Source: a virus
Reading direction: 5' to 3' (one strand)
IMG/VR virus record: IMGVR_UViG_3300046675_000159
Location: 1 to 23,023 of that record
Length of the DNA: 23,023 nt
Notes under the pieces: generated by a model
Told to the model about the DNA's origin: nothing
The model's database searches: none
Seen by the model: the letters and a program-made list of their open reading frames with translations, nothing else
Translations under genes and position numbers: made by a program
Shown: in pieces, positions 3,105 to 21,131 of the stretch
How positions within the stretch are numbered: position 1 is the stretch's first letter
Layout of the letters: each line of letters opens with the position of its first letter

Positions 3105-3105
3105 C

Positions 3106-3810
3106 ATGAGCGCCGCAGACATTCTCAGCCTCCCTGTCGCCATCGGCCTTTCGGGCGAGGAGTTCATCGAGGTCGTCCAGGGCGGAACGCTCCATCGCGC
3201 CACGGTCAAACATTTCAGCAAGCGGCTGCTGGAGGGCGAGATCCCCAACGGCGTCCTCGTGCTGGACGGCAAGGAAGGTCCGCCAGGCGGCGCAGGCCCG
3301 CCCGGACCGCCTGGGGAAGGTCTGCCCGGCCCGCCGGGTCCACCCGGCCCGCCGGGTCCACCCGGCTCGCGGGGCGCGATCTTCACGCCGGCGTCTGGCG
3401 CCGTCATCCGCTCGTGGTCCGTCTACGACAGCAATCAGCATGTGTTCAAGGAACGCTATTTCCTGGGCGCCGACTTCCAGAAGAAGAATTTTTATCCGCA
3501 ACTGATGCTCGCGCCGGCTGTGTCGACCGTCGGCAACCGGCTGCGGTTGCGGGCCAAGATCTGGTGCAGCGGCACGGACACCGATTGCGTCATCAATGGC
3601 GGCTTATTCCTGAACGGAACAAAAGCGGTGAGCGTCGCGCGCGCCTTCGCTGACGCGCCGCTGCTGTTCGACTACGAATGCATCCCAGACACCACGGCGG
3701 CGCAAATGTTTTCTTTCTGCGTCGGCACGGCTGAGAGCGGCGCTGATTGCATTGTCAATATGCCGCACCTAGTCCAGAGTTGCCTCGTCATCGAGGAGAT
3801 CCAGGCGTGA
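3106..3810 (+). CDS. Short tail fibre/appendage protein with collagen-like stretch (fibre 2)
   Basis: A 234-residue protein. ATG 3106 is preferred over ATG 3091 because GGAG at 3095-3098 sits 7 nt upstream and the N-terminus then aligns with the two neighbouring fibres (LPVAIGLSGEEFIEVVQGG). Residues about 57-90 are near-perfect Gly-Pro-Pro triplets with a small interruption (GEGLPG); two adjacent 18-bp units (3328-3345, 3346-3363) are identical at the DNA level. The C-terminal 140 residues form a beta-rich globular domain with Cys residues (WCSGTDTDCVINGG) that I do not recognise; it could be a small receptor-binding head. The stop codon overlaps the next start (GTGA, 3807-3810). Fibre or appendage is inferred from the shared N-terminal module, the collagen rod and the position. 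Confidence 0.75.
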   Translation: MSAADILSLPVAIGLSGEEFIEVVQGGTLHRATVKHFSKRLLEGEIPNGVLVLDGKEGPPGGAGPPGPPGEGLPGPPGPPGPPGPPGSRGAIFTPASGAVIRSWSVYDSNQHVFKERYFLGADFQKKNFYPQLMLAPAVSTVGNRLRLRAKIWCSGTDTDCVINGGLFLNGTKAVSVARAFADAPLLFDYECIPDTTAAQMFSFCVGTAESGADCIVNMPHLVQSCLVIEEIQA

Positions 3811-6800
3811 GCGACATCCAGATCCCAAACCTGCCGCCCGCTACCGACTTGACTGGCTCGGAGCAACTGGAGATCGTTCAAGCCGGCGTCTCGGTGCGCG
3901 CCACGATTGCGCAGATCATCACTGACGCCAATGTTCCGACGGCCTCCAGCACTCTGCCAGGGATGGATGGCGGGGCCTCGGCGGGTGTCGAGGTGACCTA
4001 CTCGCGCGGCGATCACATCCACCCGACCGACACCACGCGCTACGCCGCGAGCAATCCGGCAAATTATGTGACAGCGACCCAGGTCACCGCCGCGCTGGGG
4101 CCTTACGCCCTGATCGATAGCCAGGCGTTCACCGGGACGCCCTCGATGCCGACAGGCGCCACGGGCGTCACTCAGACGGCGGCGGATAGCTCGACCAAGC
4201 TGGCGACCACAGCCTTCGTCAAGGCCCAAGGCTACGCGCCGACATCGTCCCTCGGCACGATGTCCGTCCAGAACGCCAATGCCGTGGCGATCATCGGCGG
4301 CTCCATCAACAGCACGACCGTCGGCGCAACCGTGGCCAGCACCGGCGCCTTCACCACCTTGAGCGCGGTCACCAGCGCCAACTTCACCACCGCCGGCACA
4401 GTCACTATCAATCCGACCACGCTCGGCCATGTTGACAATACGGCGGTTGGAGCGACCACGCCCAGCACCGGCGCCTTCACCAATCTGAGCGCCAGCGGCG
4501 CAGTGTCGGGCGTCGGCTTCACCAATCTGCTCTCGACCTACGCCAAGATCGATTCTCAGGCTTTCACAGGGACGCCCTCGTTGCCCACCGGCACGACAGG
4601 CATCACCCAGGCTACCGCCGACAGCACGACCAAATTGGCGACCACGGCCTTCGTCAAGGCCCAGGGCTACCAGACGGTTGCAGCCCTCGGCACCATGTCC
4701 ACCCAGAACGCCAACGCCGTGGCGATCACTGGCGGCACGATCAACGGCACGTCTGTTGGCGCGACCACGCCCAGCACCGGAGCTTTCACCAATCTGTCGG
4801 CGTCGGGCACGGTATCGGGCGCCGGCTTCACCGCGCTGCTGGCTCCCTATGCGACCACGGCGTCCCTGGGGACGATGTCCACCCAGAACGCCAATGCCGT
4901 GGCGATCACCGGCGGCGCGATCAATGGCACGACGATTGGCGCCACCACGGCGGCGGCTGGCACCTTTACCAACCTGACCGCGACCGGCACGGTTTCCGGC
5001 GCCGGCTTCACGACGCTGCTGACGCCCTACGCGCTGGTCAATTCTCAGGTCTTCACTGGGACGCCCAGCCTGCCGACAGGCACCATCGGCGTGACGCAGG
5101 CGGCGGCCACCAATAACACGACGCTGGCGACCACGGCTTATGTGAAGTCGCAGAACTACCTGACCGCCAACCAGACCATCACGCTTTCGGGCGATGTCAC
5201 TGGATCTGGCGCTGCGGCAATCGCGGCGACGGTCGTCCAGCTTCAGGGCCGACCGCTGTCGGCCTCCCTGCCCGCCACCGGCAACCTGATGGGCTGGAAC
5301 GGCACGACGTGGGGTCCGGTCGCGGCTGGCGCGGCGGCGGCGGGCGGCACTAACACCCAGATCCAATATAACAACGGCGGCGTCCTCGGCGGCATTTCGC
5401 AGAATGGTAGCGGCACCGTGGTGATGACCACCAACTCGACTGCTGTCGTTCACCAGAACACGCTCGGCGTTACGGGCGCAGCGGCGGCGAACGACGCCGC
5501 CTTCACGCTGAACAAGTCCGCGTCGGCTCAGAAAAACATCATCTATGGGCAGACGGCGACATCGCTTCGCTGGAGCGTGACCCTTGGCGACGTGACGGCG
5601 GAAGGCGGCAGCAACGCCGGTTCAGACTTCAACATTTCGCGCTATACCGATGCAGGCGGTGCGCTCGACAGCCCGCTCAAGATCGTTCGCTCGACCGGCG
5701 TCGCCACGTTCGCGCAGGCGCTATTTTCGGCCAACCACACCGTCACGGGTGCTGCGGGCAATAACGCCGCTGTGATCATCAACAAAGCCGCTGCCGGGTT
5801 CTACAGCGGCATCGAGACGCAGACCAACGGCTCACGGCGCTGGCTGATGATGCCGGGTGACAACACGGCGGAAGGCGGCAGCAACGCTGGCTCCGATTTC
5901 CTGATCAATCGCTACAGCGACACGGCGGTGTTTATCGACACGTCGTTCAAGATTGTCCGCTCGACAGGGCAGGCGACCTTCGCATCGCCCGCAAAGTTTC
6001 CGTCCAATGCGGTAAACGCCAACACTAACCCCGGCGGGTTGGACGGCATCACTATCGAGGGCGCTACTGGCGCGTTGGGCATCGCATCCACCAGAGCCGG
6101 GTTATTGCGCTGGCGCGCAGCTTTTGGATCGACTACGGCGGAAAGTGGAAGCAACACCGGGTCTGACTTTATCCTAAGTCGCTATGCCGATAATGGAACT
6201 TCGATTGACGCCCCGTTCTCCATCAGTCGAGCGACCGGCGTCGCCACCTTCGCCAATGCGCTTATTTCCGGCAACCACACGGTCAACGGCCCAGCATCGA
6301 CCGACGCCGTACTGACCCTCAACAAGCCAGCATCTGGGTTTCAAAGCATAATCTACGGGCAGAAAGCTGGCGTGAACCGCTGGGCCGTGTCGCTCGGCAA
6401 CAGCACTGCTGAAAGCAGCAACGCTGGGTCTGACTTTTACGTCAATCGGTATAACGACGCTGGGACATACATAGACAGCCCGCTTTGGGTTAATCGCTTG
6501 ACCGCACAAGCCAACTTTTCGGGCGCGATAATCACCACCGCCGGAATTGCAACCCTCGCGCCCCCGGCTGGCGACGCCGCCATCTACTTGGCTAAATCAG
6601 GGTCCGCCAAAACCAACCTCATTGTCGGGCAGACTGGCGCAAGCAATCGCTGGTTCATGGCGATGGGCGACAATACAGCGGAAAGCGGCGGCAACGCCGG
6701 TTCTAACTTTGCTCTGTCCCGCTTCAATGACGCTGGAGCTTATATAGACACCCCATTTTTTATTAACCGCAATGATGCCACTGTTGGATTTTCCAGCACT

Positions 6801-7403
6801 GTTACGGCTAATGCTTTCAAAGCAAGCGGTCCTTATGCGTTACAGGTTACTGGTCTGGAAGTTGGCTCCGGGCCAACGTCCTACACTCAGTACCCCGCTA
6901 TATGTAATCCATCTTATGGCTCGATGAACATCTATTGTCAGCACATACCCGGCACTGTAGTCCAGTGGGCGCTGTCTATTGCGAGTGCTGGCACCTTTTC
7001 ATTTGACGGCAGCGGCAACGGGAAGGCGCCGGGAACGTGGGTCAGCCTCTCCGACCTTCGCGTCAAGACCGACATCAAGGAAATCAAGTCGGCCCTCGAA
7101 AAAGTCGGCAGGCTCACCGGCTGCACCTACGAGCGCACCGATCTGCACAATTTGGACGGCACTCGGTCCATGCACGCCGGTCTGATCGCACAGGACATTC
7201 AGGCAGTGCTGCCCGAAGCCGTGTTCGAAGACAAGACGCCGGATGGAAAGATATTTGGCGAGGACGAGCCGGGCAGGCTGTCCTACGCAACAAACGGCGT
7301 CGTGGCGCTGCTGGTCAACGCCGTCAAGGAACTGACGGCGCGCGTTGAGGCGTTGGAAGCGGCTGCTGCCCCGGCGCCAGCCAAGACAAGGAGAAGCAGA
7401 TGA
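3807..7403 (+). CDS. Long tail fibre/tailspike with C-terminal S74 self-cleaving chaperone (fibre 3)
   Basis: GTG 3807 is chosen because GAGGAG at 3793-3798 is 8 nt upstream and the protein then begins with the shared fibre module (SDIQIPNLPPATDLTG). It has 1198 residues. Residues about 40-450 carry two interleaved repeat types: FTGTPS followed by TKLATTAFVKAQGY, and GTMSTQNANAVAI. Residues about 557-1008 hold five 90-residue repeats. The end is an intramolecular chaperone auto-processing domain (peptidase S74): SDLRVKTDI with presumed catalytic Ser1082 and Lys1087, then AGLIAQDIQAVLPEAV and a C-terminal coiled coil (VNAVKELTARVEALEAAAA). In this family the chaperone trimer folds the beta-helical shaft and cuts itself off just before the Ser, so a mature fibre of about 1081 residues is predicted. 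The last codons overlap the endolysin gene by 4 nt. Confidence 0.88.
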   Translation: MSDIQIPNLPPATDLTGSEQLEIVQAGVSVRATIAQIITDANVPTASSTLPGMDGGASAGVEVTYSRGDHIHPTDTTRYAASNPANYVTATQVTAALGPYALIDSQAFTGTPSMPTGATGVTQTAADSSTKLATTAFVKAQGYAPTSSLGTMSVQNANAVAIIGGSINSTTVGATVASTGAFTTLSAVTSANFTTAGTVTINPTTLGHVDNTAVGATTPSTGAFTNLSASGAVSGVGFTNLLSTYAKIDSQAFTGTPSLPTGTTGITQATADSTTKLATTAFVKAQGYQTVAALGTMSTQNANAVAITGGTINGTSVGATTPSTGAFTNLSASGTVSGAGFTALLAPYATTASLGTMSTQNANAVAITGGAINGTTIGATTAAAGTFTNLTATGTVSGAGFTTLLTPYALVNSQVFTGTPSLPTGTIGVTQAAATNNTTLATTAYVKSQNYLTANQTITLSGDVTGSGAAAIAATVVQLQGRPLSASLPATGNLMGWNGTTWGPVAAGAAAAGGTNTQIQYNNGGVLGGISQNGSGTVVMTTNSTAVVHQNTLGVTGAAAANDAAFTLNKSASAQKNIIYGQTATSLRWSVTLGDVTAEGGSNAGSDFNISRYTDAGGALDSPLKIVRSTGVATFAQALFSANHTVTGAAGNNAAVIINKAAAGFYSGIETQTNGSRRWLMMPGDNTAEGGSNAGSDFLINRYSDTAVFIDTSFKIVRSTGQATFASPAKFPSNAVNANTNPGGLDGITIEGATGALGIASTRAGLLRWRAAFGSTTAESGSNTGSDFILSRYADNGTSIDAPFSISRATGVATFANALISGNHTVNGPASTDAVLTLNKPASGFQSIIYGQKAGVNRWAVSLGNSTAESSNAGSDFYVNRYNDAGTYIDSPLWVNRLTAQANFSGAIITTAGIATLAPPAGDAAIYLAKSGSAKTNLIVGQTGASNRWFMAMGDNTAESGGNAGSNFALSRFNDAGAYIDTPFFINRNDATVGFSSTVTANAFKASGPYALQVTGLEVGSGPTSYTQYPAICNPSYGSMNIYCQHIPGTVVQWALSIASAGTFSFDGSGNGKAPGTWVSLSDLRVKTDIKEIKSALEKVGRLTGCTYERTDLHNLDGTRSMHAGLIAQDIQAVLPEAVFEDKTPDGKIFGEDEPGRLSYATNGVVALLVNAVKELTARVEALEAAAAPAPAKTRRSR
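5475..6830 (+). repeat. Five-copy 270-nt (90-residue) in-frame repeat array in the long fibre gene
   Basis: The Arg-Trp dipeptide codons that mark each unit fall at 5568, 5838, 6108, 6378 and 6648, exactly 270 nt apart each time. Each unit reads roughly RW..xLGD.TAE, then GSNAGSDF, RY.DAG..IDSP and a TGxATF-like end. DNA identity between units is only partial, so the array is old and diverged, yet its length register is kept. One more unit is in the first fibre gene, around 1965. It probably encodes successive rungs or subdomains of a trimeric shaft. Confidence 0.85.
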
Positions 7404-8011
7404 TCGACCGCGAGTTTTTCTTCGACACCGTCCGCGACGAGCTTTTCCCCAGCGGGATGGCGCAGTCTCAGGTGGACGGCATGAACAATCTGCTCAACAT
7501 CTGGGAGGCCGACTACGCCGCCGCCAACCCGCGCGACGGCAAGATGTGGCTGTCCTATGGGCTGGCGACCGTCTACCACGAGAGCGCGCAGACCATGCAG
7601 CCCATCGAGGAATACGGCAAGGGCGAGGGCCACAGCTACGCCGATCCGGATGGCCCCTACGGCCAGTCCTATTACGGGCGCGGCCATGTCCAATTGACCT
7701 GGTTCGAAAACTACGAAAAGGGCGAGGCGGTCTTCAAGGAGAAGTTCGACCGCAACGTGCCGATGGTCAAATATCCGCATCGCATGCTGGAGGAGGAAAC
7801 CTCGGCGGTGATTTTATATGAAGGCATGATCGACGGCTGGTTTACCGGCGTCGGCCTGCCCGATTTCTTCAGCGCCGAAGAGGGCGAGGAAGACCCCTAC
7901 AACGCTCGCAAGATCATCAACGGCCTCGACAAGGCTTCGACCATCGAGGGCTATTACTGGCAGTTCAAATCCGCTCTGAGGGACCAAGCTGATGCGGAGA
8001 GCAGTGTTTAA
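7400..8011 (+). CDS. GH19-family (chitinase-like) endolysin
   Basis: A 203-residue muralytic enzyme; ATG 7400 overlaps the fibre stop (ATGA) and AAGGAGAAG lies just upstream. GH19 hallmarks are visible: HES at residues 60-62 with Glu61 as the likely general acid, a second acidic cluster EEYGKGEG (residues 70-77), and YYGRGHVQLTW (91-101), the family's substrate-cleft signature. GH19 phage enzymes cut the glycan strands of peptidoglycan. No signal peptide or separate wall-binding domain is seen, so release through a membrane lesion made by another protein is expected; the overlapping downstream gene is the obvious candidate. The acidic stretch EEGEEDPYNARKIINGLD near the C-terminus fits the usual GH19 fold end. 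Assignment is confident; exact bond specificity is not shown. Confidence 0.88.
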   Translation: MIDREFFFDTVRDELFPSGMAQSQVDGMNNLLNIWEADYAAANPRDGKMWLSYGLATVYHESAQTMQPIEEYGKGEGHSYADPDGPYGQSYYGRGHVQLTWFENYEKGEAVFKEKFDRNVPMVKYPHRMLEEETSAVILYEGMIDGWFTGVGLPDFFSAEEGEEDPYNARKIINGLDKASTIEGYYWQFKSALRDQADAESSV

Positions 8012-8219: not shown

Positions 8220-9001
8220 CGACGCCAAACGCCCTTACCTATAACGGCTTCATCAGCGCCATCGCGGTTCTGGCTGTCACCCAGACCAAAGCCGATCCGC
8301 TCGACCCGAACGGGACGCTTCACTTTGTCGAGCCGAATCTCGACAGCATTGTCCCGCAGATGCTGAATTATGCGGAGTTGCGCATTCAGCGCGACCTCGA
8401 CCTTCTGGTGGGGCAAACGCAGTCTGGCGCCTATGCGCTGGCGTATAAAGACTGGTCTATTCGGGTTCCGGTAAACGATTTCGTCGTCGTTCAGAACATC
8501 GTGCTGCGCGATAATCTCGGAGGCCCTGTGATAAGCTTGACCCCCGTGACGACGGAATTTATGACGAACACGTATCCAGACAACGCATTTCTTGGAACCC
8601 CAAAATACTTCGCCGCTTTCGGCACCGATTCATCGGGAGGAATATCAGATCTTTTTTACACCATTGCGCCATCAGCGGATCGCCCCTATCAGGTTTTCGT
8701 CAGGGGCCTCGCGCGCTTGCCATCGCTGTTTAGTTTTGCTGGTACGCCGCAAACCAACAGCGCCTCGACGTTCATCTCGACGAACATGCCCGATCTGCTG
8801 CTGATGGCGAGCATGATCTTCGTCAGCGCGCACCAGCGCAATTTCAGTTCCGCCGGCTCGGACCCGCAGATGCCCGTCAATTACGAGCAGCAATATACGA
8901 CGCTGCTCAAGGCCGCGAGCATCGAAGAGATGCGCAAGCGGTTCCATTCGATTGGCGGATCTGCCGAGACGCCGTCCCTCGCCACCGCATCAACGAAGTA
9001 G
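8216..9001 (+). CDS. Virion adaptor-like protein (head-tail connector family)
   Basis: A 261-residue protein beginning with ATG 8216 in a 4-nt overlap with the putative holin gene. The N-terminal third is helical and includes VPQMLNYAELRIQRDLDLL, a pattern I associate with adaptor proteins bound to the portal in podoviruses of the P22/SU10 type; the middle is beta-rich (WSIRVPVNDFVVVQNIVL, VISLTPVT) and the C-terminal part helical (NYEQQYTTLLKAASIEEMRKR). It is followed 4 nt later by the gp10-like stabilisation protein, a gene pairing usual in head-completion modules. Its function would be to join the portal to the tail hub. The exact family cannot be confirmed without a profile search. A stretch around 8520-8700 looks richer in A+T than the rest. 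Confidence 0.6.
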   Translation: MTTPNALTYNGFISAIAVLAVTQTKADPLDPNGTLHFVEPNLDSIVPQMLNYAELRIQRDLDLLVGQTQSGAYALAYKDWSIRVPVNDFVVVQNIVLRDNLGGPVISLTPVTTEFMTNTYPDNAFLGTPKYFAAFGTDSSGGISDLFYTIAPSADRPYQVFVRGLARLPSLFSFAGTPQTNSASTFISTNMPDLLLMASMIFVSAHQRNFSSAGSDPQMPVNYEQQYTTLLKAASIEEMRKRFHSIGGSAETPSLATASTK

Positions 9002-9005
9002 CGCC

Positions 9006-11192
9006 ATGCCTCACGCAACGCTCAAACTCAAACCTGGCGTCAATACCAACGAGACGCCTGTCTTGAACGAGGCGGGGGTTTCGGCGTGCAACCTGATTCG
9101 CTTCAAGTTCGACCCGCAGGGCCTCGGCCTGATCGAGAAGCTTGGGGGTTGGGCCAAGTTCAAAGCCAATGCGCTTCCAGAAGTTGTGCGCCACCTCTAT
9201 GCCTGGCAGGCAATCAACGCCGATAAGTTCATCGTCGCCGGGATGCAAGGCACGGGCGGCCTGTTTCTCATGCAAGCGAGGCAGCTACCTAACGGCAATT
9301 ATGTCGATGATCCGGGTCTGGTGTCGACGCCAAACATCACGCCGCTTTTTAACTATTCCGATGCGGCGCCAGCTTACTCCACTACCGCAGGAAGCCCGAT
9401 TGTCAGCATTTCCGATTCCACGATGACCAACGCCATCCACATTACGGATGCAGTTTACATCGCCACGCACGTCGCTATCGGCGGCATCGTGCTTTTTGGT
9501 CAGTACCCGATCTATAGCGTTGCAAGCACCACGCAATTTTCGATCATGTCGCTGACGCTGTTGGGTCTGCCCAATTCGGCGCTATCCACATCCACCGCAG
9601 GCGTGTTGCCGACATTCACGACTGTGCTGGACGACTTTGTCGTCACTGTCACTCTCCCCAATCATGGCTACGTGATAGGGAGCTATTTTCCGCTTCTCAT
9701 CCCGATCACCGTCGGCGGCATCACGCTTCAGGTAGCCTCGTATCCTATCCAGAAAATCATCGACGCCAACAGGTTCACCATCTATGCGCAGAACGTGGCT
9801 ACCTCAGTGGCGACAGCGACGCTGAACAGCGGCAACGTCCGAATGATCTACAATGTCGGCGGCATCCCGATCACCACGCAGAGCGGCTACGGCACGCCAT
9901 TCCGCGCGACGCCCGGATTTGGCTACGGCAAGCCAGACGTGATGACCGCCGGTTTTGGTTATGGTCTGGGCGGCGCCGTCCCTGCCATCCCAGGCACGCC
10001 GGCGTTTGCGAACGACTGGGCCTTGGACAACTGGGGGAGCACCTTGCTCGCCAGCCCTGAAGGCGCCGTGATCGACGGCATTCCCGTGTCGGGGATTTAC
10101 GCCTGGACGCCTGATCAAGGCACGACGGTCGTTGCGCTGATCCCCGAAGCGCCGCCGGTCAACGATGGCTTCTTTGTCGCCATGCCGCAGCGCCAGATCG
10201 TCACCTGGGGGTCGAGCTTCGATGGCGTGCAGGATCCGCTGCTGATCCGCTGGTGCGATGTCAACGATTACACGACCTGGACGGCGACGATCACCAACCA
10301 GGCCGGATCGTATCGCGTGCCGAAAGGGTCAAGAATCGTCGGCGCCATTCAGGGGCCGCAGCAGGGCCTGATCTTCACCGATCTGGCCGTATGGGCGATG
10401 CAGTATATCAGCCAGCCCTACATTTATTCGTTCAACGAAATCGGCAACGGTTGCGGCTTGATCGCGCAGAAAGCGGCGACGTCGCTCAATGGTACGGTCT
10501 ACTGGATGAGCCATCGCCAGTTCTTCCAGCTTTCAGGCGGCGGCGTCCAGCCGATCCCATGCCCCATCTGGGACATTGTTTTTCAGAGCATTGATCGCCG
10601 CTTTTACGACAAGATCCGGATCGCGCCGAACTCGATGTTCAGCGAGGTTTCGTGGTTTTTCACATCAGTCAATTCGCCTAATCAGGAGAACGACAGCTAC
10701 GTCAAATTCAACTATGTGCTGAACGTGTGGGACTATGGAACGCTGTCGCGCTCGGCATGGATACCGCAGAGCGTGATCGGCGCGCCGCTCGGCGCTATCC
10801 CCGACCCAACCAGCGGAAAAAATTATGTCTACCAGCATGAAATCTCGCCAGACGCCGATGGCCAGGTGCTGAACTCCTGGTGTACGACGGGCTATTTCGC
10901 GCTGTCCGATGGCGACAACAAGATCTTCGTCGATGAAATCTGGCCGGATATGAAATGGGGCCAGTACGGCGGCACGCCGAACGCCACGGTCAGCTTCACT
11001 TTTGGCGCGACCGATTTTCCGAACGTGGCGCCGACGCAGTTTGGTCCTTTCAGCTTCACGTCTGCCGACACTTACACCACGCCTCGACTGCGCGCGCGCC
11101 TGCTGCAGGTGACTATCTCCAGCAATGATCTCGGCTCGTTCTGGCGCCTCGGCGGGATGCGGTATCGGATGGCTCCGGATGGGAAATACTGA
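9006..11192 (+). CDS. Packaged-DNA stabilisation / tail hub-like structural protein (gp10-like)
   Basis: A 728-residue protein. ATG 9006 is favoured over an in-frame ATG at 8952, which would overlap the upstream gene by 50 nt and would add an Arg/Pro-rich leader; a weak GAAG precedes 9006. The start LKLKPGVNTNETPVLNEAG followed by IRFKFDPQGLGLIEKLGGW is typical of a family of short-tailed-phage structural proteins usually called stabilisation protein or gp10-like. Other typical blocks are LDNWGSTLLASPEGAV (from residue 340), RWCDVNDYTTW and SWFFTSVNS. Such proteins form the beta-propeller-like hub or nozzle under the adaptor ring that keeps DNA inside and holds fibres. It overlaps the next gene by 1 nt (TGATG). 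The role is by family resemblance, not proven here. Confidence 0.65.
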   Translation: MPHATLKLKPGVNTNETPVLNEAGVSACNLIRFKFDPQGLGLIEKLGGWAKFKANALPEVVRHLYAWQAINADKFIVAGMQGTGGLFLMQARQLPNGNYVDDPGLVSTPNITPLFNYSDAAPAYSTTAGSPIVSISDSTMTNAIHITDAVYIATHVAIGGIVLFGQYPIYSVASTTQFSIMSLTLLGLPNSALSTSTAGVLPTFTTVLDDFVVTVTLPNHGYVIGSYFPLLIPITVGGITLQVASYPIQKIIDANRFTIYAQNVATSVATATLNSGNVRMIYNVGGIPITTQSGYGTPFRATPGFGYGKPDVMTAGFGYGLGGAVPAIPGTPAFANDWALDNWGSTLLASPEGAVIDGIPVSGIYAWTPDQGTTVVALIPEAPPVNDGFFVAMPQRQIVTWGSSFDGVQDPLLIRWCDVNDYTTWTATITNQAGSYRVPKGSRIVGAIQGPQQGLIFTDLAVWAMQYISQPYIYSFNEIGNGCGLIAQKAATSLNGTVYWMSHRQFFQLSGGGVQPIPCPIWDIVFQSIDRRFYDKIRIAPNSMFSEVSWFFTSVNSPNQENDSYVKFNYVLNVWDYGTLSRSAWIPQSVIGAPLGAIPDPTSGKNYVYQHEISPDADGQVLNSWCTTGYFALSDGDNKIFVDEIWPDMKWGQYGGTPNATVSFTFGATDFPNVAPTQFGPFSFTSADTYTTPRLRARLLQVTISSNDLGSFWRLGGMRYRMAPDGKY

Positions 11193-12238: not shown

Positions 12239-12742
12239 ATGAGCGACATACGAGTGAGATACGGCGTTCCAGCCGACGTGCATAATTTCATGGACCTGAC
12301 GGCCATGTGCGCGGAAGAGAACGGCCTGCTCGCGGTGAACAAGCGGAAAGTGCTGGAGGAAGTGTGGGCCAGCCTGAACTGCGATCACGGCGTGATCGGC
12401 GTGATCGAGGGCGACGAAGGCATGCTGGAGGCCGGCATCCTGCTCCGCGTGGACACCACGCCCTACAGCGTCGAGGAAGTCCTGTGCGAACGCGCGATCT
12501 ATGTGCGTCCGGAATATCGCAAAGTGCAGCGGAGCCTCTACCAGGGCGGGCGCGCCAGCTACCTGTGCGAGTTCGCCAAGAACGCCGCCACGCGCCTCGA
12601 ATTGCCTCTTCTGATCAGTATTTTGTCAACGCATCGCGCTGCTGGTAAGGTGAGACTTTACGAGCGGCATTTTGGAACGCCGGCAGGCGCCTATTGGCTT
12701 TGGAACGCGAAGACGGGCCATAAGCAAGAAGCTGCGGAGTAG
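12239..12742 (+). CDS. GNAT-like acetyltransferase protein, degenerate cofactor loop
   Basis: A 167-residue protein beginning 2 nt after the previous stop. The order of secondary structure fits the GNAT fold: IRVRYGVPADVHNFMDL at the start, a central strand pair (GVIGVIEGDEGMLEAGILLR), then ERAIYVRPEYRKVQRSLYQG (from residue 84), where GNAT enzymes carry the acetyl-CoA pyrophosphate loop, and a C-terminal RLYERHFGTPAGAYWLW. The usual R/Q-x-x-G-x-G/A loop is not intact (YRKVQRSLYQGG), so cofactor binding may be weak or altered. Its place just before the ejection genes suggests action on a virion protein or on a host target during infection; the substrate is unknown. Confidence 0.6.
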   Translation: MSDIRVRYGVPADVHNFMDLTAMCAEENGLLAVNKRKVLEEVWASLNCDHGVIGVIEGDEGMLEAGILLRVDTTPYSVEEVLCERAIYVRPEYRKVQRSLYQGGRASYLCEFAKNAATRLELPLLISILSTHRAAGKVRLYERHFGTPAGAYWLWNAKTGHKQEAAE

Positions 12743-12747
12743 ACGTC

Positions 12748-15700
12748 ATGGGCGGCAAGACACAGCAGGCTTCATCTCAAGTCACGATCCCGCCGGAAGT
12801 TTTGGCGCGCTACAACAGCGTGAACGCGCAGGCGCAGCAGACCGCCGCCACGCCTTTCCAGCAGTATTCGAGCGATCCGAATGCCTTTGTGTCGCCCATG
12901 ACGACGGCCCAGAATATGGGCCTCCAGCAGACCGCGAATTATGCCAACGCCGCGCAGCCTGGCCTTCAGCAGGCGATGGGCATGACGGCGGGGGCCAGCG
13001 GCCAGGCCAATCCGTGGGAATTGACTGGCGACAAGATCAACCAGTACACGAACCCGTACACTCAGAACGTCACCAATCAAATGGGCGCTCTGATGAACCA
13101 GCAGGCCAACCTGTCTCAGTCAACTCAGATGGGCAACGCCATCAAGAGCGGCGCCTTTGGCGGCGACCGCGCCGGCGTGGCGGCGGCGAACCTTCAAGGC
13201 CAGAATGCGCTCGCCTACGGCAACGCCATGGCTCCGGTTCTCCAGCAGGGCTACAACACCGGCCTCCAGACCGCGATAGGTCAGCAGGGCGTCGATCTCG
13301 GCGCGCAGCAGGCCAACCTGCAGCGGATGATGACCGGCGCGAACCAATACGGCCAGTTGGCCGGCGCGGGGCAGCAGGCGGGCCTCGCCGGCGCACAGGC
13401 GATGATGGGCGCGGGCCAGGTGCAGCAGCAGACCCAGCAGGCCGGCCTGACGGCGCTTTACAACCAGTTCCAGCAACAGCAGTCCTATCCCTTCCAGGTG
13501 AACCAGTTCCTCGCGAATATCGCGGAAGGCACCGGCTCGCTGTCGGGCCAGACGACGAACTCCACCCAGCAGGCGCCGTTCTTTTCTGATCGCCGCCTCA
13601 AGGAGAATATCAAGCGAATCGGCACCGCCAAGAACGGCTTGCCGATCCACAGCTTCAACTACAAGGACGATCCTGAAAAGCTGTCCCGCCTCGGCTTCAT
13701 GGCCGACGAGGTCGAGAAGAAGCATCCGGAGGCGGTGGGTCTGGCCGGCGGCTACAAGACCGTCGATCACGAGCAGGCGATGAAGAGCGCCGGCGGCAGC
13801 GTCACCGATTTCGACCAGAACGCGGCCTACGGTCGCGGCGGATTCGACCTCGGCGGCGCCACCAGCACCTATGACCCATCCTGGCAGTCTGTCGGCCAGC
13901 GGCACCTGGCGGGGCTGCAAAGCCCGCAGCAGGGCAGCAGCTTATATGGCTCCAAGAGGCGCCACGTTCCGGAAGCGTCGGGTGGCCGGTACAGCTTGCC
14001 GAACGCGCCTGCCGTGCCGGGGGTGAAGCCGACAGGTCTGAGCCAGGCCATCGGAACGGCGCAGTCGGCTGTGGGCCTCGGCCAGACGCTTGGCGACGCC
14101 AAGGACAAATATTTCTCCAGCAAGGATACGCCGCCGGCTGCAACCACCAACGCACCTGCTGCAGGCGGCGCGCCCGCAGTAGTGGCGAAAGCGCCTGGCA
14201 CACCAACTGACGCTGCTGACGTCACGTATTTGAACCGGGGCGGTCTGGCCGATGGCGGCCCGCCTGTACCGGCTGTCGCTGCCGCCTCGATGGCTGGAAG
14301 GCCAGCGGAAGGCGTCGCCAATGTCGTTGAGCCAACGGATGCTTACAAGGCAGGTCTAGGCCACGCCGTGGAGGCGCAGGAAAACGCCAACAGGATACAG
14401 GATGCGGCGCGCGCGGAGGCGGCGACGTCTCCCATTTCGTTCAAGCCCGACTGGGACTATCCGGGGCTGGGAGCGACCGATCTGCAACGCTCGGCCAAGG
14501 TGTACGGCGCCGGCACGTTGAACGGATACTACGATCCGACGCACGGTGGATCTTATCTTGGTTTCGAGCGCGGCGGCTATGCGACGGACGGCGCCGTGGG
14601 CGGCAACGCGGACGTGCTCAAGACCCCTGATCCGAACGCCACGCAAGACACGACCCAGATGAACATTCCGGACAAGCAGTCAACCTACAAGCTGCCTGAT
14701 CCGCCCAAGACAGGCGGCGCTGGCGGGAAGAGCGGAGCCGGCCAGGCTTTGGGCGCGGCCAAGTCGCTTATGGGCCTCGCCTCTCTCATCCCCGGCGTCG
14801 GCGCCGTCACCGGCCCTCTCGGCGCCGTGATGGGTGCGGGCGAGGCGCTGGCCGGCGCCAGCGGTGGTCTGATGGTTGCAGGCGGTCGCCGCCGCAAAGG
14901 CAAGCGCAAGGGCCTGGCCGTCGGCGGTCAGGGCGAGGGCGTTGATTACATGAGCAAGACGCGACAGATTGATCCTGAAATAGCGGACATCGCAGATTCG
15001 TGGGCGCCCACTTCCGACCCTCGCACGGGTGCAGATTACATGAACGAGAGCCGGCAGGGGCGTGAGACTGAGCATCAGTATTCCGTCAATAATGATCAGG
15101 CGCCGCTGACCACGAGCGCCAACACCGGCCTCGCCGGTCAGGGCGTGGATTACATGAGCGAAGCGCGGCAGGGGCGCGAGCCGGAACTCAGAAGCTCCGT
15201 CCATCCCGCCATGACGGCGTCGAATGCAACGCCGGAAGAGCAGACTGCATATCTCAAGGAGCACATCCCGCGTGAGGACATGCACAAGGTGATGTCGCCT
15301 GCTGCCTTGGCGAAGGCGTATCCGCCGACGCAAGAAACGCCGGCGCCGGGTGTGCTTGGTCCGTGGTCGAGCCGATCCGCGTCTGCCTCTGTCCCTAATT
15401 CGGGCGAGCGCCTGCTTAACACTCAGCCGTCCACACGCGAGGCTCAGACTGGCGCGGCGCCGGTCGAAGGGTCTGGTTTCGACAAACCGCTTAACCTCGG
15501 AAGCGCGCAGCTTCCCACTGCGGCGTTCCCCAGCGGCGGCGCCACGCCCGAACAGGCTGCGGCGGCGAATGCATTGCGCAGATCTCCTGAAGCCGCCGCA
15601 CTCGCGGGCGCGGAGGAAGCGCGTCAAGGCAAGGTTCAGGACGCCGTCGCGATGAAGCGGGATTACGACGCGCGCCATGCACAGTCTTGGGGCGATTCGT

Positions 15701-17436
15701 TGACGGGCGTGAAGCCTGAACTGGCGCCTGAAACACCCGAACAGGAGCAGGCTCGTCTCTCGCGCTACGATTCGACCACGCCAGCGACTGCCGAGCAAGC
15801 CACTGCCGGCCCCATGACGCAGCCTGGTCTTAGGCCGTCAGATGTCGCCGCGCTCGCTGACAAGCCGGCGCCCGCGCCTGGCGTGGCGGCTGCGGAAGCC
15901 CCCGCAGAGCACGAAGCCGGTCTGGTTCTTCCGCCCGAAGCCAGAGGCGCGCCGCCTCCAGGGGTGACCGACGCTCGCACCTTCCCTCGTTCAGCGACGC
16001 CGCTCGGCGGCGAAGCTCCCGCCCCTGTCGTGAAGCCTGCGGCGCCGGTGGCTGCTCCTGTTCCGGTGCCGCCGCGTCGTCCGTCCCCCGGCGTCGCGCC
16101 AGCCGCTCCTGCGGGCGCGGCGGCCAGAGCGCCAGTCGATGCCAACGGCAACCCCATCGAGCAGTTCTTCAGCGGCCTTGGTCGCGGCGTGGGCGATTTC
16201 TTCCACGGCGTTGGCAACATCTTCACGGGCGGTGCCCAGCAAGCCGGGAATGTCGTCAATGCGGCGGGCCAGACAGTCAATAGGGCAGGACAGGCCGTCG
16301 GTCAGGCTGTTAATTCTGCGGGCCAGGCCGTCAGCAACGAAGTCCACGGGCGCATCAACGAACTGATGACCGGCTCGCCAAAGATGGCGCCGCCAGCCGC
16401 CAATTTTCGCGCCCAGGGCGTCGATCAGCGCCTGATCAGCAACCTTACGGAAGCCACGAGAGGTCTGCCGCAAGGCTGGCATGCGCAAATGGAATCCGGC
16501 TACCGCGACAAAGATCCGCGTCAGCATGGCAGAGGCGCGGCGGTTGACGTCGCGCTCTACAATGAGAAGGGCGAGAGGCTTGCCAACTACCAAGACCCGA
16601 CCACCTTCCGCGCCTATGAAAAATTTGCGCAGGATTTCAGGGCGGCGCAGCAACACAACAACCCCGAATTGAACGACGCCACGCGCTGGGGCGGCTATTT
16701 CAGCGGCAAGGCGCGCGTTCCCGGTCAGAAATATGATGCTGAACATCCCTATGGCGCGGTCGATCTGATGCACTTCGACCTCGGCGGGCGGCAGGGCCTC
16801 GGCATGCTCGGCGGCGACTGGGAACATGGCATGACGGCGAAACAGCATGCGCTGTTCCCCGGCGCTGTGTCTGTCGGCATGGGCCAGCGCCCTGAAGGCG
16901 GATATCCGACAGCGGTCGCCACCAGCAGCGATGGCGCCAGGACCAGCGCGACGGGACAGGTATCGCCGGGATACCACAATGGCGTTCAGGGCATCCTCGC
17001 GCAGGAGGAAAGCTTCCGTGACAAGCCGTATTGGGACAAGTCCGCCGGCGGCGGGGGCGCGTGGGCTATTGGCTACGGCACCCACATGGTCGCGGGCGCC
17101 GACGGCAAGATGCGCCCCGTGCAGCCGGGTGACACCATCACGCCACAAGGCGCCCACCAGAACATGGTGCAGCGTCTGCAAACGGAGTTTCTGCCGAGAG
17201 CGGTGCAGAAAGTCGGGGGCCTCGATACCTGGCGCGCCCTGCCGCGCAATGTCCGCGATGGCCTCGGCTCGACCATCTGGAACTACGGCAATCTGCCCGA
17301 CCGGGTTGCTTTCGTAATCCGGAATGGCGGTGGCCCCGCCGAGATCGCAAACGCGGTGTTGCAACTCGGCGGCAAGACAGAAGCAGCCCGCGAGCGCCGC
17401 GCGCGTGAAGCGGCGCACATTCGTGGTGGAGGTTGA
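12748..17436 (+). CDS. Giant internal virion/ejection protein with S74-like, M15-like and GH24 muramidase domains
   Basis: A 1562-residue protein; ATG 12748 has GGAG at 12736-12739. Residues 1-275 are Gln/Ala-rich and helical, like N-termini of ejection proteins. Residues 280-345 (SDRRLKENI, Ser280 and Lys285; GFMADEVEKKHPEAV) resemble the S74 chaperone core. Residues about 360-1130 are low complexity, with three RGG/DGG linkers (362, 497, 608), a hydrophobic Gly/Ala segment plus RRRKGKRKG (about 665-725) and three DYM(S/N) repeats (733, 763, 801). About 1135-1209 is an amphipathic AGQxV repeat region. Residues about 1215-1370 look like an M15-type peptidase (HGRGAAVD, His1260/Asp1267; MHFDL, His1342). 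Residues about 1415-1562 are GH24-like lysozyme (ESFRDKPYWD, Glu1421/Asp1430; AIGYGTH). It probably opens peptidoglycan during DNA entry. It overlaps no neighbour; the next gene starts 2 nt later. Confidence 0.82.
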   Translation: MGGKTQQASSQVTIPPEVLARYNSVNAQAQQTAATPFQQYSSDPNAFVSPMTTAQNMGLQQTANYANAAQPGLQQAMGMTAGASGQANPWELTGDKINQYTNPYTQNVTNQMGALMNQQANLSQSTQMGNAIKSGAFGGDRAGVAAANLQGQNALAYGNAMAPVLQQGYNTGLQTAIGQQGVDLGAQQANLQRMMTGANQYGQLAGAGQQAGLAGAQAMMGAGQVQQQTQQAGLTALYNQFQQQQSYPFQVNQFLANIAEGTGSLSGQTTNSTQQAPFFSDRRLKENIKRIGTAKNGLPIHSFNYKDDPEKLSRLGFMADEVEKKHPEAVGLAGGYKTVDHEQAMKSAGGSVTDFDQNAAYGRGGFDLGGATSTYDPSWQSVGQRHLAGLQSPQQGSSLYGSKRRHVPEASGGRYSLPNAPAVPGVKPTGLSQAIGTAQSAVGLGQTLGDAKDKYFSSKDTPPAATTNAPAAGGAPAVVAKAPGTPTDAADVTYLNRGGLADGGPPVPAVAAASMAGRPAEGVANVVEPTDAYKAGLGHAVEAQENANRIQDAARAEAATSPISFKPDWDYPGLGATDLQRSAKVYGAGTLNGYYDPTHGGSYLGFERGGYATDGAVGGNADVLKTPDPNATQDTTQMNIPDKQSTYKLPDPPKTGGAGGKSGAGQALGAAKSLMGLASLIPGVGAVTGPLGAVMGAGEALAGASGGLMVAGGRRRKGKRKGLAVGGQGEGVDYMSKTRQIDPEIADIADSWAPTSDPRTGADYMNESRQGRETEHQYSVNNDQAPLTTSANTGLAGQGVDYMSEARQGREPELRSSVHPAMTASNATPEEQTAYLKEHIPREDMHKVMSPAALAKAYPPTQETPAPGVLGPWSSRSASASVPNSGERLLNTQPSTREAQTGAAPVEGSGFDKPLNLGSAQLPTAAFPSGGATPEQAAAANALRRSPEAAALAGAEEARQGKVQDAVAMKRDYDARHAQSWGDSLTGVKPELAPETPEQEQARLSRYDSTTPATAEQATAGPMTQPGLRPSDVAALADKPAPAPGVAAAEAPAEHEAGLVLPPEARGAPPPGVTDARTFPRSATPLGGEAPAPVVKPAAPVAAPVPVPPRRPSPGVAPAAPAGAAARAPVDANGNPIEQFFSGLGRGVGDFFHGVGNIFTGGAQQAGNVVNAAGQTVNRAGQAVGQAVNSAGQAVSNEVHGRINELMTGSPKMAPPAANFRAQGVDQRLISNLTEATRGLPQGWHAQMESGYRDKDPRQHGRGAAVDVALYNEKGERLANYQDPTTFRAYEKFAQDFRAAQQHNNPELNDATRWGGYFSGKARVPGQKYDAEHPYGAVDLMHFDLGGRQGLGMLGGDWEHGMTAKQHALFPGAVSVGMGQRPEGGYPTAVATSSDGARTSATGQVSPGYHNGVQGILAQEESFRDKPYWDKSAGGGGAWAIGYGTHMVAGADGKMRPVQPGDTITPQGAHQNMVQRLQTEFLPRAVQKVGGLDTWRALPRNVRDGLGSTIWNYGNLPDRVAFVIRNGGGPAEIANAVLQLGGKTEAARERRAREAAHIRGGG

Positions 17437-17441
17437 CAATG
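17428..17441 (+). promoter_or_regulatory. Ribosome site that decides the start of the second ejection gene
   Basis: GGAGG at 17428-17432 lies 6 nt before ATG 17439 and directly touches the alternative TTG at 17433, so the ATG is the better start. The site lies inside the last codons of the giant upstream gene, which links translation of the two. Confidence 0.8.
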
Positions 17442-19064
17442 GCTGACCCAACGACTGACGACGTCATGATGGGCGCTGACGCCGGCGCTCCTGCTCCTGC
17501 GGTTGTGGCGCCGGGCAGGGTTGATGCGGATCCTGTCGTCGCCAAAGCCATGCCTGTGGCCAGGGACGCGGCGCCGTCGCCGCCCCTGTTCGCGCGCAAG
17601 CCTGTTGCTGCGCCGGCAGAAGAGAAGGGCGGCGGGCAGAAGGGCGGCGACTGGTTCGGACAGAACCGTAGCTGGCTGATCCCGCTGTTGAGCGGCGTCG
17701 GCGGCATGGCGTCGTCGAATAGTCCTTACCTCGGCACCGCAATCCTGCAGGGGCTGGGCAAGGGTGCGGAAGCTTATGGCAGCGAGCAGCAGAACGAGGC
17801 CGATCTGGCCAGCAGGCAATCCGGAACGCGCCGCAATGATGTCGGCACGGTGAAGGAAGCCCTTGATATCCAGAAAGGCGCCATCTACAAAAAAGCCGGC
17901 ATCGACACGGTCGCCCTTGAAGGCGGCGGCGAGATGTCCTTTGCCCAGTGGATCGCGCTGGACAAGCTCGGCAAGGCGCCGCCTGTCGTTGGCGCGCAAG
18001 AAATTCGCAATTCAGAAGCGTACACGAAGGGCACGAACGCGCCCAGCACGTACACGGGCGGACCCGGCGGACCGGGTGTGCTTGGCGATCCAGGTCATCC
18101 TGGCGGTCCTGCTGGCGGTCCTGCTGGCGGTCCTGCTGGCGGTCCTGCTGGCGGTCCTGCTGGCGGTCCTGCTGGCGGTCCTGCTGGCGGTCCTGCTGGC
18201 GCGCCAGCCCCTCATTTCCTGCCGGATGCCCAGCCGCAGTTGCCGAAGACACACGAGGAAGCCGCGAACGCCGTTGGCGAAAAGGGCGGGGCGATCCTGG
18301 ATGAGGCGTCGAACCGTTACCTCATGAATGAGGGCGACTATAATGACGCGAAAAGAGCGTCGGCAGGATTGGAGAAAGGCATTCCGGCGGAAGCGGAAGC
18401 CGCTCGCAGCCAGCGCGTCAATCTGTATCAGATGGCCGATAAAATACTCCAGCAGCCCGACGAGGGTTTTCTGAAGGCTGATGCTCTCGGCACCGTCAAG
18501 CACACTGTCGCGGGCTATTACAACGCCTTGCTCGACGTCGCGCATTTGACGCCGGATCAGATGAAAATGCTCCGGATGGACGACAAGGACATTGGCACCG
18601 GAACGGCAATCGATAAATTTTCGAAAAGCCTGGGCTTCCTCTCCGCTAGTGGCATGGATCAAAATTCGTATGCCGCCCTCCAGCAGGCGCTGGCTATGGT
18701 CCCGAATAAGGACATGAGCAAAGAGCAGGCGATCCAGGTGCTCCACGGGATGGTTGTGGGCCACCAGAGAGCCATCGACCGCGATGCATACCTTGCCGAC
18801 TGGAAGCGGCGTTCCGGCGGCGATCACCCCGGCACGTCTCGTTGGACCGGCATCGACGCCATGCATGCCTTCGAAGCTGATCACGGCGACAGATACGGCA
18901 AAGAGGGCAAGGCGTTCGAAGACGTGATGCGGATGAAGCACGGCAAAACCGGCAAATATCTCTTCTCCGATATCGTCAATGGCTCGACGGACGCGCGCGG
19001 CCTGGACAAGAAGCTCGGCATACCGGGTTTCTCTCGCTGGTTCCACAATTACGGAGGGAGTTGA
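17439..19064 (+). CDS. Presumed internal virion/ejection protein with GGPA repeat
   Basis: A 541-residue protein. ATG 17439 is preferred to the in-frame TTG at 17433 because GGAGG at 17428-17432 is 6 nt before the ATG and would touch the TTG. The N-terminal 60 residues are Ala/Pro/Val-rich and probably unfolded; a Gly-rich hydrophobic stretch follows (WLIPLLSGVGGMASS, then TAILQGLGKGAEAYG). Residues 222-253 are eight exact GGPA units after a short collagen-like lead (GGPGGPGVLGDPGHP). The C-terminal half is helical and charged (AEAEAARSQRVNLYQMADKI, DQMKMLRMDDKDIGTGTAID). I recognise no enzyme motif. Its place between two large ejection-like genes and its composition support a packaged internal protein; this is inferred from context only. 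Confidence 0.6.
   Translation: MADPTTDDVMMGADAGAPAPAVVAPGRVDADPVVAKAMPVARDAAPSPPLFARKPVAAPAEEKGGGQKGGDWFGQNRSWLIPLLSGVGGMASSNSPYLGTAILQGLGKGAEAYGSEQQNEADLASRQSGTRRNDVGTVKEALDIQKGAIYKKAGIDTVALEGGGEMSFAQWIALDKLGKAPPVVGAQEIRNSEAYTKGTNAPSTYTGGPGGPGVLGDPGHPGGPAGGPAGGPAGGPAGGPAGGPAGGPAGGPAGAPAPHFLPDAQPQLPKTHEEAANAVGEKGGAILDEASNRYLMNEGDYNDAKRASAGLEKGIPAEAEAARSQRVNLYQMADKILQQPDEGFLKADALGTVKHTVAGYYNALLDVAHLTPDQMKMLRMDDKDIGTGTAIDKFSKSLGFLSASGMDQNSYAALQQALAMVPNKDMSKEQAIQVLHGMVVGHQRAIDRDAYLADWKRRSGGDHPGTSRWTGIDAMHAFEADHGDRYGKEGKAFEDVMRMKHGKTGKYLFSDIVNGSTDARGLDKKLGIPGFSRWFHNYGGS
18102..18197 (+). repeat. Perfect 12-bp tandem repeat, 8 copies
   Basis: The unit GGCGGTCCTGCT occurs eight times with no mismatch and encodes Gly-Gly-Pro-Ala each time with the same four codons. 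A diverged ninth unit (GGCGCGCCAGCC) follows. The unit length is a multiple of three, so gain or loss of copies keeps the frame. The lack of third-position changes points to recent expansion by slippage or unequal exchange. It is not a CRISPR array, because there are no spacers. Confidence 0.95.
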
Positions 19065-19067
19065 GCC

Positions 19068-21131
19068 ATGCCGTCGGTAGACGAGTACAATGCTCCCGAA
19101 CCTGCAGTAAAGGCGGCGCCTGCGGTCGCGCCAAGCGGCGACAAGAGCGATCTCAGCGAATACAACATCCCGCCCAGCGGCAGCGCAGGCTCGACGGCTT
19201 CCGCAGACGCGGAGAAAGAGCCGAACTGGGCGACCATGCCCGTTTCGGAAATCGCCAAGCGCGGCGCTCAGACTTTTATTCCTGCGGCGGTGGTGGGGGC
19301 CGGCAACATGGCGCAAGGCGCGGCCCAGGCGGTCGCGCACACAGTTGAAACGGGCGAGCTTCCCGGCAAGGGCCTGGTCGAGGCCGGCGATGCGTGGCTC
19401 AACAGGAAGCTTTCGGGCTATGCGCCAGAGACGATGAAGGTGATCAACAAGGCGATAGGCTATACGCCGCCGACGGACGAGAACTACACCAAGACCGTCG
19501 AGCCTGGCACCGAAGCCGTCGAAGATCTCAAGAGCCGGTGGGGAAGCCGCGCCGCCATCGCCAAGGGTTTCGGGACCAACACTCCCGCGATGCTGCTGGA
19601 CGCCGCCACCTTCATCGATCCGGCGCTGCGACTGGGCAAGGGCGCGTCTGCATTGACCGCCGGCAAGTCCGCAGCCAGTCTAGGGGAAAAGGCCACCGCC
19701 GCCGACCTCGGCCAGGCCGTCCACGGCGCCGCGTCTGAGGCGCTCGCCGCGAAAGACGCCGCCTACAAGCAAGCCTTCGGCCACACCGCTGTGTTCGATC
19801 CCGCTGCGGCCCAGCCCATCATGGGCGAAGTGCAGGCCAACCTCGCGAAAGTGCCGAACTTTCCAGGCTTGAACCGTCTCGACAAGCACCCGCACCTCGC
19901 GGACGCCAAGGTGGCTTATGACCATCTGAATGATAGCCTCAGAAATATCGATCCGCATGATTTCACCATGCCGAACATGGAGAACATCCGGCGCGACCTC
20001 CAGCAGAAGGCGATGGAGACAGAGAGCGGCCCCGCTCGCTACATGATCGGCCAGATGATCGACGGAATCGACAGCGGCATCAGCAAGGTGGCGACGAAGC
20101 CGGGGATGTACGCCGGCGACGGCGCCGCCGTGGCCTCCGATATGGCCAAAGCTCGCAAGTTGAACGTCGACTGGATCAAGCAATTTGGCAGCGAGGCGCC
20201 GTCGAGCTTCAAGCCCACGATGGGTGTGCTTCCGAAAGACCTGGCGACGGCTGATGACAGCCATTTCCACGCTGCCGGCACGGGCCTCGGCAATGCGCTG
20301 ATGAACGAGGGCAAGGGCGGCGTTCTCTACAATCACCTCAAGCAATTCGTGCCGAAAGAAACCCTCGACAACTACCTGCGCGAGCCGATGCTGGCGGGCA
20401 AATCCGCAGACGTGACGAAGCGGCTGAACACGCCCATCGCGCAGGATGTCTTTGGCTCCGAACTGGACAGGGCCAAGAAGTTGGCCGCCACGCAGGACAC
20501 CAGGACGCTCGCGGGCAAGGCGGCTTCGGTTGGTAAGTGGGGGTTGGAGGCAGCGGCGCCTATCGTTGGTCACGCGCTGTTTCCGGGTGGCGGCGGCGCC
20601 TTGGCTGGATTAGCAGCGAGTGGTGTCGGGGAGCTTGCGAGCAGGAAGTTTTTCCCGCACGGCGTCGGCAGCAGGGCGCCGCTCTATGAGCGTTTTGTGG
20701 GGGATTCGACGCCCCCGTTGACGAAGATCGAGGCCGCGAAGCGGGCGGTGAACCCGCTCACCTGGGCGAAGCCATCGACCTACACGCCGCTGCTCAACCC
20801 CGTAGCTTACAAAGAGGCGGCGCTCCCGTTGACGGGCGCCGGCGCAATCGGCCACAGGGCGGCTGAAGCTCCGCACACGGCGGCGGCGGTCACCTCGACT
20901 GCGCCGACCGAATCCGATCCGCTGGCCGGAATGTCCTATGGCTACGACCCCACGGGGCAGAACCGATTCGCCAAGGGCGGCGCCGTGAAAGGTCACCAGC
21001 ATCTGGTCGACCGGCTATTCGCCGCGCACGAGCGCGCCAAGCGCGAGGAAAAGGCGCATACTGCGGGCATCCTGCACCAGCCTGACGAGGCGGTCGCAAA
21101 AGCCCTCCACGTCGCCCAGGCGGCTATCTGA
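19068..21131 (+). CDS. Presumed internal virion/ejection protein
   Basis: A 687-residue, mostly helical, Ala-rich protein. ATG 19068 lies 3 nt after the previous stop with GGAGGGAG at 19053-19060. Two short N-terminal repeats (VDEYNAPEP and LSEYNIPPS) are followed by a Gly/Ala hydrophobic helix (IPAAVVGAGNMAQGAAQAVA), a long helical middle (NMENIRRDLQQKAMETESG) and a Gly-rich hydrophobic segment near residues 500-525 (LFPGGGGALAGLAASGVGEL). The last 54 residues (FAKGGAVKGHQHLVDRL to VAKALHVAQAAI) match a C-terminal tail I recall from large virion proteins of alphaproteobacterial phages. Such proteins leave the capsid first and may form a channel across the cell envelope. No enzyme motif is seen, and the assignment is by context and composition. 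Confidence 0.6.
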   Translation: MPSVDEYNAPEPAVKAAPAVAPSGDKSDLSEYNIPPSGSAGSTASADAEKEPNWATMPVSEIAKRGAQTFIPAAVVGAGNMAQGAAQAVAHTVETGELPGKGLVEAGDAWLNRKLSGYAPETMKVINKAIGYTPPTDENYTKTVEPGTEAVEDLKSRWGSRAAIAKGFGTNTPAMLLDAATFIDPALRLGKGASALTAGKSAASLGEKATAADLGQAVHGAASEALAAKDAAYKQAFGHTAVFDPAAAQPIMGEVQANLAKVPNFPGLNRLDKHPHLADAKVAYDHLNDSLRNIDPHDFTMPNMENIRRDLQQKAMETESGPARYMIGQMIDGIDSGISKVATKPGMYAGDGAAVASDMAKARKLNVDWIKQFGSEAPSSFKPTMGVLPKDLATADDSHFHAAGTGLGNALMNEGKGGVLYNHLKQFVPKETLDNYLREPMLAGKSADVTKRLNTPIAQDVFGSELDRAKKLAATQDTRTLAGKAASVGKWGLEAAAPIVGHALFPGGGGALAGLAASGVGELASRKFFPHGVGSRAPLYERFVGDSTPPLTKIEAAKRAVNPLTWAKPSTYTPLLNPVAYKEAALPLTGAGAIGHRAAEAPHTAAAVTSTAPTESDPLAGMSYGYDPTGQNRFAKGGAVKGHQHLVDRLFAAHERAKREEKAHTAGILHQPDEAVAKALHVAQAAI

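Follow-up and report, generated by a model that had tools for sequence, protein, structure and literature searches.

Why would a phage place two domains of the peptidoglycan-hydrolase type, one behind the other, at the end of a single protein that appears to be ejected into its host? The question is raised by E1, a protein of 1562 residues encoded at 12748..17436 of the window, by which is meant the whole stretch of DNA analysed, whose 23,023 bases are the entire viral record and have a GC content of 62%. Its genes are late genes of a short-tailed, P22-like phage; portal and capsid genes are absent from the 23,023 bases. Its contents comprise three tail-fibre genes, a GH19-like endolysin, a gp10-like protein, a GNAT-like acetyltransferase and three large putative ejection proteins, E1 to E3, which start at 12748, 17439 and 19068 and are followed by the gene of a tail-collar protein. 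E1 to E3 and the gp10-like, GH19-like and GNAT-like genes all lie on the plus strand. The tail-fibre genes (1233-3104, 3091-3810 and 3747-7403) follow one another and have the motif LSG.E.LE.VQGG in common at the N-terminus; collagen-like GPP repeats occur in two of the three.

Is E1 an ejection protein at all? A preliminary description had named it as one, and its surroundings agree. The synteny anchor is the P22 gp10-like (phage stabilization) protein at 8952..11192 (phrog_3287, 2.6e-58), the gene in the corresponding place in MW202675 being annotated "phage stabilization protein", and the P22-like gene order is found, with E1 after the gp10-like protein and more ejection genes downstream. 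PHROG annotations are transferred labels, and with that reading E1 matches a virion structural protein family (phrog_6121, 4e-21), a DNA ejection protein family across residues 1-344 (phrog_4287, 3.6e-9) and, less strongly than the first, a tail fibre protein family (phrog_1980, 4e-11). Synteny and PHROG matches together place E1 in a putative P22-like ejection operon. The tail fibre match, along with the occurrence of M15 and GH24 domains in endolysins, is what would speak for E1 as part of the tail or as an enzyme of the lysis stage instead of an ejected head protein, but this is improbable: that match probably arises through the S74 domain of E1, the virion structural match is stronger, the whole head of the protein matches the DNA ejection family, and both the long low-complexity linker and the fusion to E2 seen in relatives argue against it, as does the presence of a separate endolysin gene. 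The latter (7400..8011; phrog_181 endolysin, 6.9e-19) encodes a GH19-like product that is probably the lysis enzyme. Directly upstream of E1 lies the GNAT-like acetyltransferase gene (12239..12742; PF13508, weak), which adjoins the gene of the S74 protein in nearly all relatives (76 matches).

The reading frame of E1 is uninterrupted from its ATG through 1562 amino acids and encodes five parts. A Q/A/N-rich N-terminal domain (residues 1-279; 12748..13584) forms the conserved head of the family and is found in 102 viral-contig relatives. It is followed by an internal S74, or intramolecular chaperone, domain (residues 280-348; 13585..13791; Pfam PF13884, 1.5e-7), which opens with SDRRLKENI at residue 280, and by a linker of low complexity, rich in Gly, Ala and Pro by composition (residues 349-1221; 13792..16410). 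The C-terminus holds an M15_C-type zinc L,D-peptidase domain (residues ~1222-1380; 16411..16887) and a GH24-fold domain (residues ~1405-1562; 16960..17433). The motifs from which two cutters had first been proposed are all where they were described, with HGRGAAVD at 1260-1267, MHFDL at 1341-1345, ESFRDKPYWD at 1421-1430, starting 80 residues after MHFDL, and AIGYGTH at 1440-1446, and the domain limits first suggested (1200-1400 and 1400-1562) were about right. Chance co-occurrence of these motifs is ruled out by conservation and structure. Within the linker, residues ~661-740 form a conserved hydrophobic stretch with a basic patch, and hydropathy peaks at residue 677. The other three lineages of the clade described below (L026, L029 and L030) keep 91-96% identity over residues 661-720, and the flanks diverge. 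The segment may touch a membrane. Three copies of a G-x-DYM-xxx-RQ motif also lie in the linker (14936-15185).

The two C-terminal domains were scanned and modelled separately. In the first, the zinc ligands of the H-x6-D type and a distal histidine correspond to H1260, D1267 and H1342, with the catalytic aspartate, D1339, three residues before H1342, and all four residues are invariant in 42 of 42 aligned sequences. The M15 enzyme EndoT5 uses H66, D73 and H133 as zinc ligands and D130 as catalytic aspartate (PMC10487532), and the local spacings in E1 equal those of its H66/D73 and D130/H133 pairs. R1253, which is at least 90% conserved, stands seven residues ahead of the first zinc histidine, an arrangement that matches R294/H301 of VldE, where the arginine likewise lies seven residues before the histidine (PMC11667670); W1314 is also conserved. 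The AlphaFold2 model has a pLDDT of ~80-92 across most of the domain and adopts the LAS-type M15 fold, aligning with LysECD7 (Z 10.8, rmsd 3.0 over 99 residues) and ChiX (Z 10.6) and matching LysB4 and Ply500 as well; the top three Foldseek matches are M15 endolysins at a probability of 1.00. A zinc site of this family between residues 1200 and 1400, as first proposed, is thus borne out by conserved ligands and the predicted fold.

Sequence searches see this domain faintly. It has no Pfam match at E<=10, and of seven members scanned two match Peptidase_M15_4 (best 0.0079) and one matches VanY weakly (0.017). The PDB sequence search gave a weak match only, to VldE (E 0.6 for the domain alone, 0.001 with a profile). 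A protein search found copies ~45% identical in tape-measure proteins of Rhizobium phages, so that close relatives of the domain sit in another class of entry protein. A first scan of genome contigs gave zero loci; the later profile search located the domain 76 times in viral contigs and at three loci in alphaproteobacterial genomes. The host of the phage is probably an alphaproteobacterium, since the relatives point there. The early proposal that the peptidase cuts cross-links holds for the type of enzyme and needs qualifying as to the target, as the bond that an M15_C enzyme should cut is L-Ala-D-Glu in the stem peptide and not the cross-link proper.

What of the second domain? Scanned alone it matches Pfam PF00959 at E 2.2e-6, which passes the gathering cut-off; the Pfam scan of full-length E1 did not detect it. 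Its AlphaFold2 model (pLDDT 83) aligns by VIA-align with PHAb10 at Z 17.4 and with P22 lysozyme at Z 16.1, and E1421 and D1430, in a Glu-X8-Asp arrangement, are invariant in 28 of 28 GH24 sequences. Matches to TALE proteins in a PDB sequence search of this domain were spurious. Published T4L-like structures are reported to have a Glu-X8-Asp-X5-Thr motif (PMC8228626), and at the threonine position of this triad E1 has Ala1440, with a longer loop, while most relatives have Arg. Muramidase activity is not assured, because this third residue is Ala1440, and the domain is therefore named here by its fold, with no claim that it is a working GH24 enzyme. The broken motif gives some footing to the idea that only the M15 peptidase is catalytic, with the GH24 domain, its muramidase activity lost, serving as a module that binds the wall or positions the protein on it. 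Yet none of the 28 diverse sequences departs from the glutamate and the aspartate, the predicted fold is preserved (Z 17.4), and the domain is kept in L030, where the first cutter is swapped, so that loss of activity is possible but the less probable outcome. Of the proposed GH24 muramidase following the M15 domain, then, the predicted fold is firm, while its activity as an enzyme is less sure.

How widespread is such a protein? A search of viral contigs with the first 352 residues of E1 gave 102 relatives (38-88% identity among the matches listed), of which 80 were kept, and removal of near-copies left 44 non-redundant sequences, E1 included. All 44 share the N-terminus, the internal S74 domain and a long C-terminal extension, so an arrangement that includes an S74 block, at first taken to be uncommon, is the rule in this family, and the rare part is the pair of cutters. 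In 40 of the 44 the S74 protein is fused to E2, the second ejection protein, which in the window is encoded at 17439..19064 and is homologous to the C-terminal part of the fused proteins (BLAST E down to 9e-39, to residues 771-1199 of L036). In the fused members a stretch of 406-654 residues separates S74 from the point where the E2 motif starts. Pfam recognises a wall hydrolase, either within this interval or C-terminally, in roughly half of the members (SLT in 11, Phage_lysozyme in 6, Phage_lysozyme2 in 2, VanY in 1 and Amidase_2 in 1). Fused members with a clear Pfam match have a single cassette, and the lack of a match in the others is not proof of absence. The linker of E2 contains a tandem array of Gly-Gly-Pro-Ala. 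One 138 kb contig, IMGVR_UViG_3300046559_000446 (L004 and L008), has two similar but non-identical ejection modules, perhaps because two phages were joined in assembly.

Two cutters and a separate E2 occur together in only one clade, formed by the window and the L026, L029 and L030 lineages (support 100/100), and the pair is either M15 with GH24 or Amidase_2 with GH24. Among the 69 M15-bearing frames examined, GH24 is also present only in this clade. The comparison of L030 with the window shows 76-95% identity over most of residues 1-420 (head ~85%) and 91% over residues 661-720; likeness is lost up to about residue 1380, with Amidase_2 in place of M15, and returns at the GH24 domain. This swap suggests that the module evolves by exchange. 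Could E1 and E2 nevertheless be joined in translation by a programmed frameshift? Inspection of the overlap by eye showed no slippery site of canonical form, and ahead of the ATG of E2, in the window as in L026 and L029, stands a GGAGG, which in the window lies within the end of E1 (17428-17432); E2 is therefore treated as a separate gene. E3 (19068..21131), assigned by position, has 67% identity to its counterparts in L026 and L029; it has no PHROG match and no PDB match, and its recognised homologues are confined to the neighbours of the clade. A further form is found in the Bradyrhizobium phage ppBeUSDA76-2, where an S74 protein of 367 residues ends just past S74 and two separate genes come after it; its row has a very long branch in the tree, which does not order the short, fused and split forms.

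The internal position of S74 raises a second question, namely whether E1 cuts itself and so releases its wall-cutting part. To our knowledge, phage S74 domains are C-terminal, and that of the tail fibre at 3747-7403 is conventional in this respect, with a coiled-coil-like tail behind it, unlike the internally placed domain in E1. The domain is internal in 44 of 44 members, and in complete relatives the reading frame runs on for 800-1340 residues beyond it. Nine relatives (L038, L047, L052, L059, L066, L072, L076, L087 and L096) have a second internal S74, which in L059, L066, L072, L076 and L087 ends about 45-100 residues ahead of the E2 motif. The C-terminal position with a trimerising coiled coil that marks membership of the S74 group is not what is found in E1, where no such coil is evident by eye after the internal S74, and the domain is therefore described as of the S74 family by sequence and not as a proven self-cleaving chaperone.

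Its Ser-Lys dyad is nonetheless complete in E1, with S280 (13585-13587) and K285 (13600-13602) at a spacing of +5, and the Ser, Asp and Lys are invariant in 44 of 44 first copies and 9 of 9 second copies. E1 might thus be a self-processing polyprotein, cut before S280 into an assembly part of 279 residues and a cutter-bearing fragment of 1283 residues, an idea that is compatible with ejection as proposed below but that we hold to be somewhat doubtful: for many S74 domains the annotation comes from homology alone, and the coiled coil, though apparent in the tail fibre at 3747-7403, is not evident after the S74 of E1. In its favour, besides the invariance of the dyad, are the same spacing in the self-cleaving dyads of endoNF (S911/K916) and MyRF (S587/K592) and the precedent of MyRF, in which an internal S74 is able to cut, with a coiled coil driving trimerisation (PMC8326128). 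Broader still, and rather unlikely as a whole, is the picture of ejection polyproteins that form a widespread and so far undescribed family, in which an internal self-cleaving S74, sometimes two, would free an N-terminal assembly part of 250-550 residues from an ejected part that cuts the wall and forms the tunnel, the clade of the window having E1 and E2 as separate genes and a second domain in the wall-cutting part.

The reading best in accord with the evidence, to which we give a probability of roughly 0.78, is that E1 is the first ejection protein of a P22-like short-tailed phage, bears a two-domain wall-cutting cassette and is ejected with E2 and E3. The C-terminus would then be an exchangeable cassette, of two domains in this clade. 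On attachment of the tail E1 would leave the head together with E2 and E3, early if the analogy with T7 holds, and the flexible Gly/Ala/Pro linker would let both cutters reach the peptidoglycan, where the M15_C-type zinc L,D-endopeptidase would cut stem peptides and the GH24-fold domain would cut, or at least bind, glycan. A local hole in the wall would thereby open and provide the route for a periplasmic tunnel. In T7 an ejection protein bears a hydrolase domain that is believed to breach the wall ahead of tunnel formation, and domains of this kind are exchanged among ejection proteins (PMC8954989). The separate GH19-like enzyme would act in lysis, at the end of infection.

How does E1 compare with known systems? 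Its pairing of two such domains is real, and two-domain entry lysins are already known, mainly from phages of Gram-positive bacteria, phi29 gp13 and HydH5 being examples. Gp13 has a lysozyme-like domain as well as its peptidase. Like E1 as proposed here, it is an entry lysin from a phage with a short tail, in this case a peptidoglycan hydrolase that is associated with the tail and has an M23 D,D-endopeptidase (PMC9662197). It differs in that it sits at the tail tip, comes from a Gram-positive phage, has M23 in place of M15 and has no S74; phi29-like phages of Gram-positive bacteria are without ejection proteins (PMC8954989). HydH5 of the S. aureus phage phiIPLA88 is likewise virion-associated and has CHAP and LYZ2 as its cutters, both of them active (PMC3150257), but belongs to a Gram-positive siphovirus and is built from other domain families. 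Closer in role are T7 gp16, SU10 gp20 and K1E gp35, ejected proteins with a peptidoglycan hydrolase for which domain swapping is described; in the parts of these accounts that bear on them, one cutter is described for each and an internal S74 is not mentioned (PMC8954989, PMC9509320), and the gp16 homologues of P22 and Sf6 are given as having no hydrolase domain (PMC8954989).

The single domains have relatives of their own. The predicted fold, zinc ligands and catalytic aspartate of the M15 domain match those of EndoT5, LysECD7, ChiX and the MT3 domain of VldE and tape measures, although EndoT5, LysECD7 and ChiX are free-standing enzymes and the M15 of E1 is a module in a putative ejection protein. 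The GH24 domain shares its predicted fold and its catalytic Glu and Asp with the endolysins P22 lysozyme, PHAb10 and T4L, differing in the Ala at the triad Thr. The S74 of E1 resembles in sequence and Ser-Lys dyad those of endosialidase, the T5 L-shaped tail fibre and GA-1 gp12, but theirs is freed from a folded N-terminal trimer (PMC8326128), whereas that of E1 is internal with ~1200 residues after it. Its possible self-cleavage, as read from the dyad, would be the newest point of E1, and the broader internal-S74 family may be a more interesting object than the double cutter. As to the latter, Gram-negative phage entry lysins typically have a single catalytic domain, and endopeptidase domains are found almost only in Gram-positive phages (reviewed in PMC6116005), a rule that would be broken by a P22-like ejection protein with a paired peptidase and GH24 domain.
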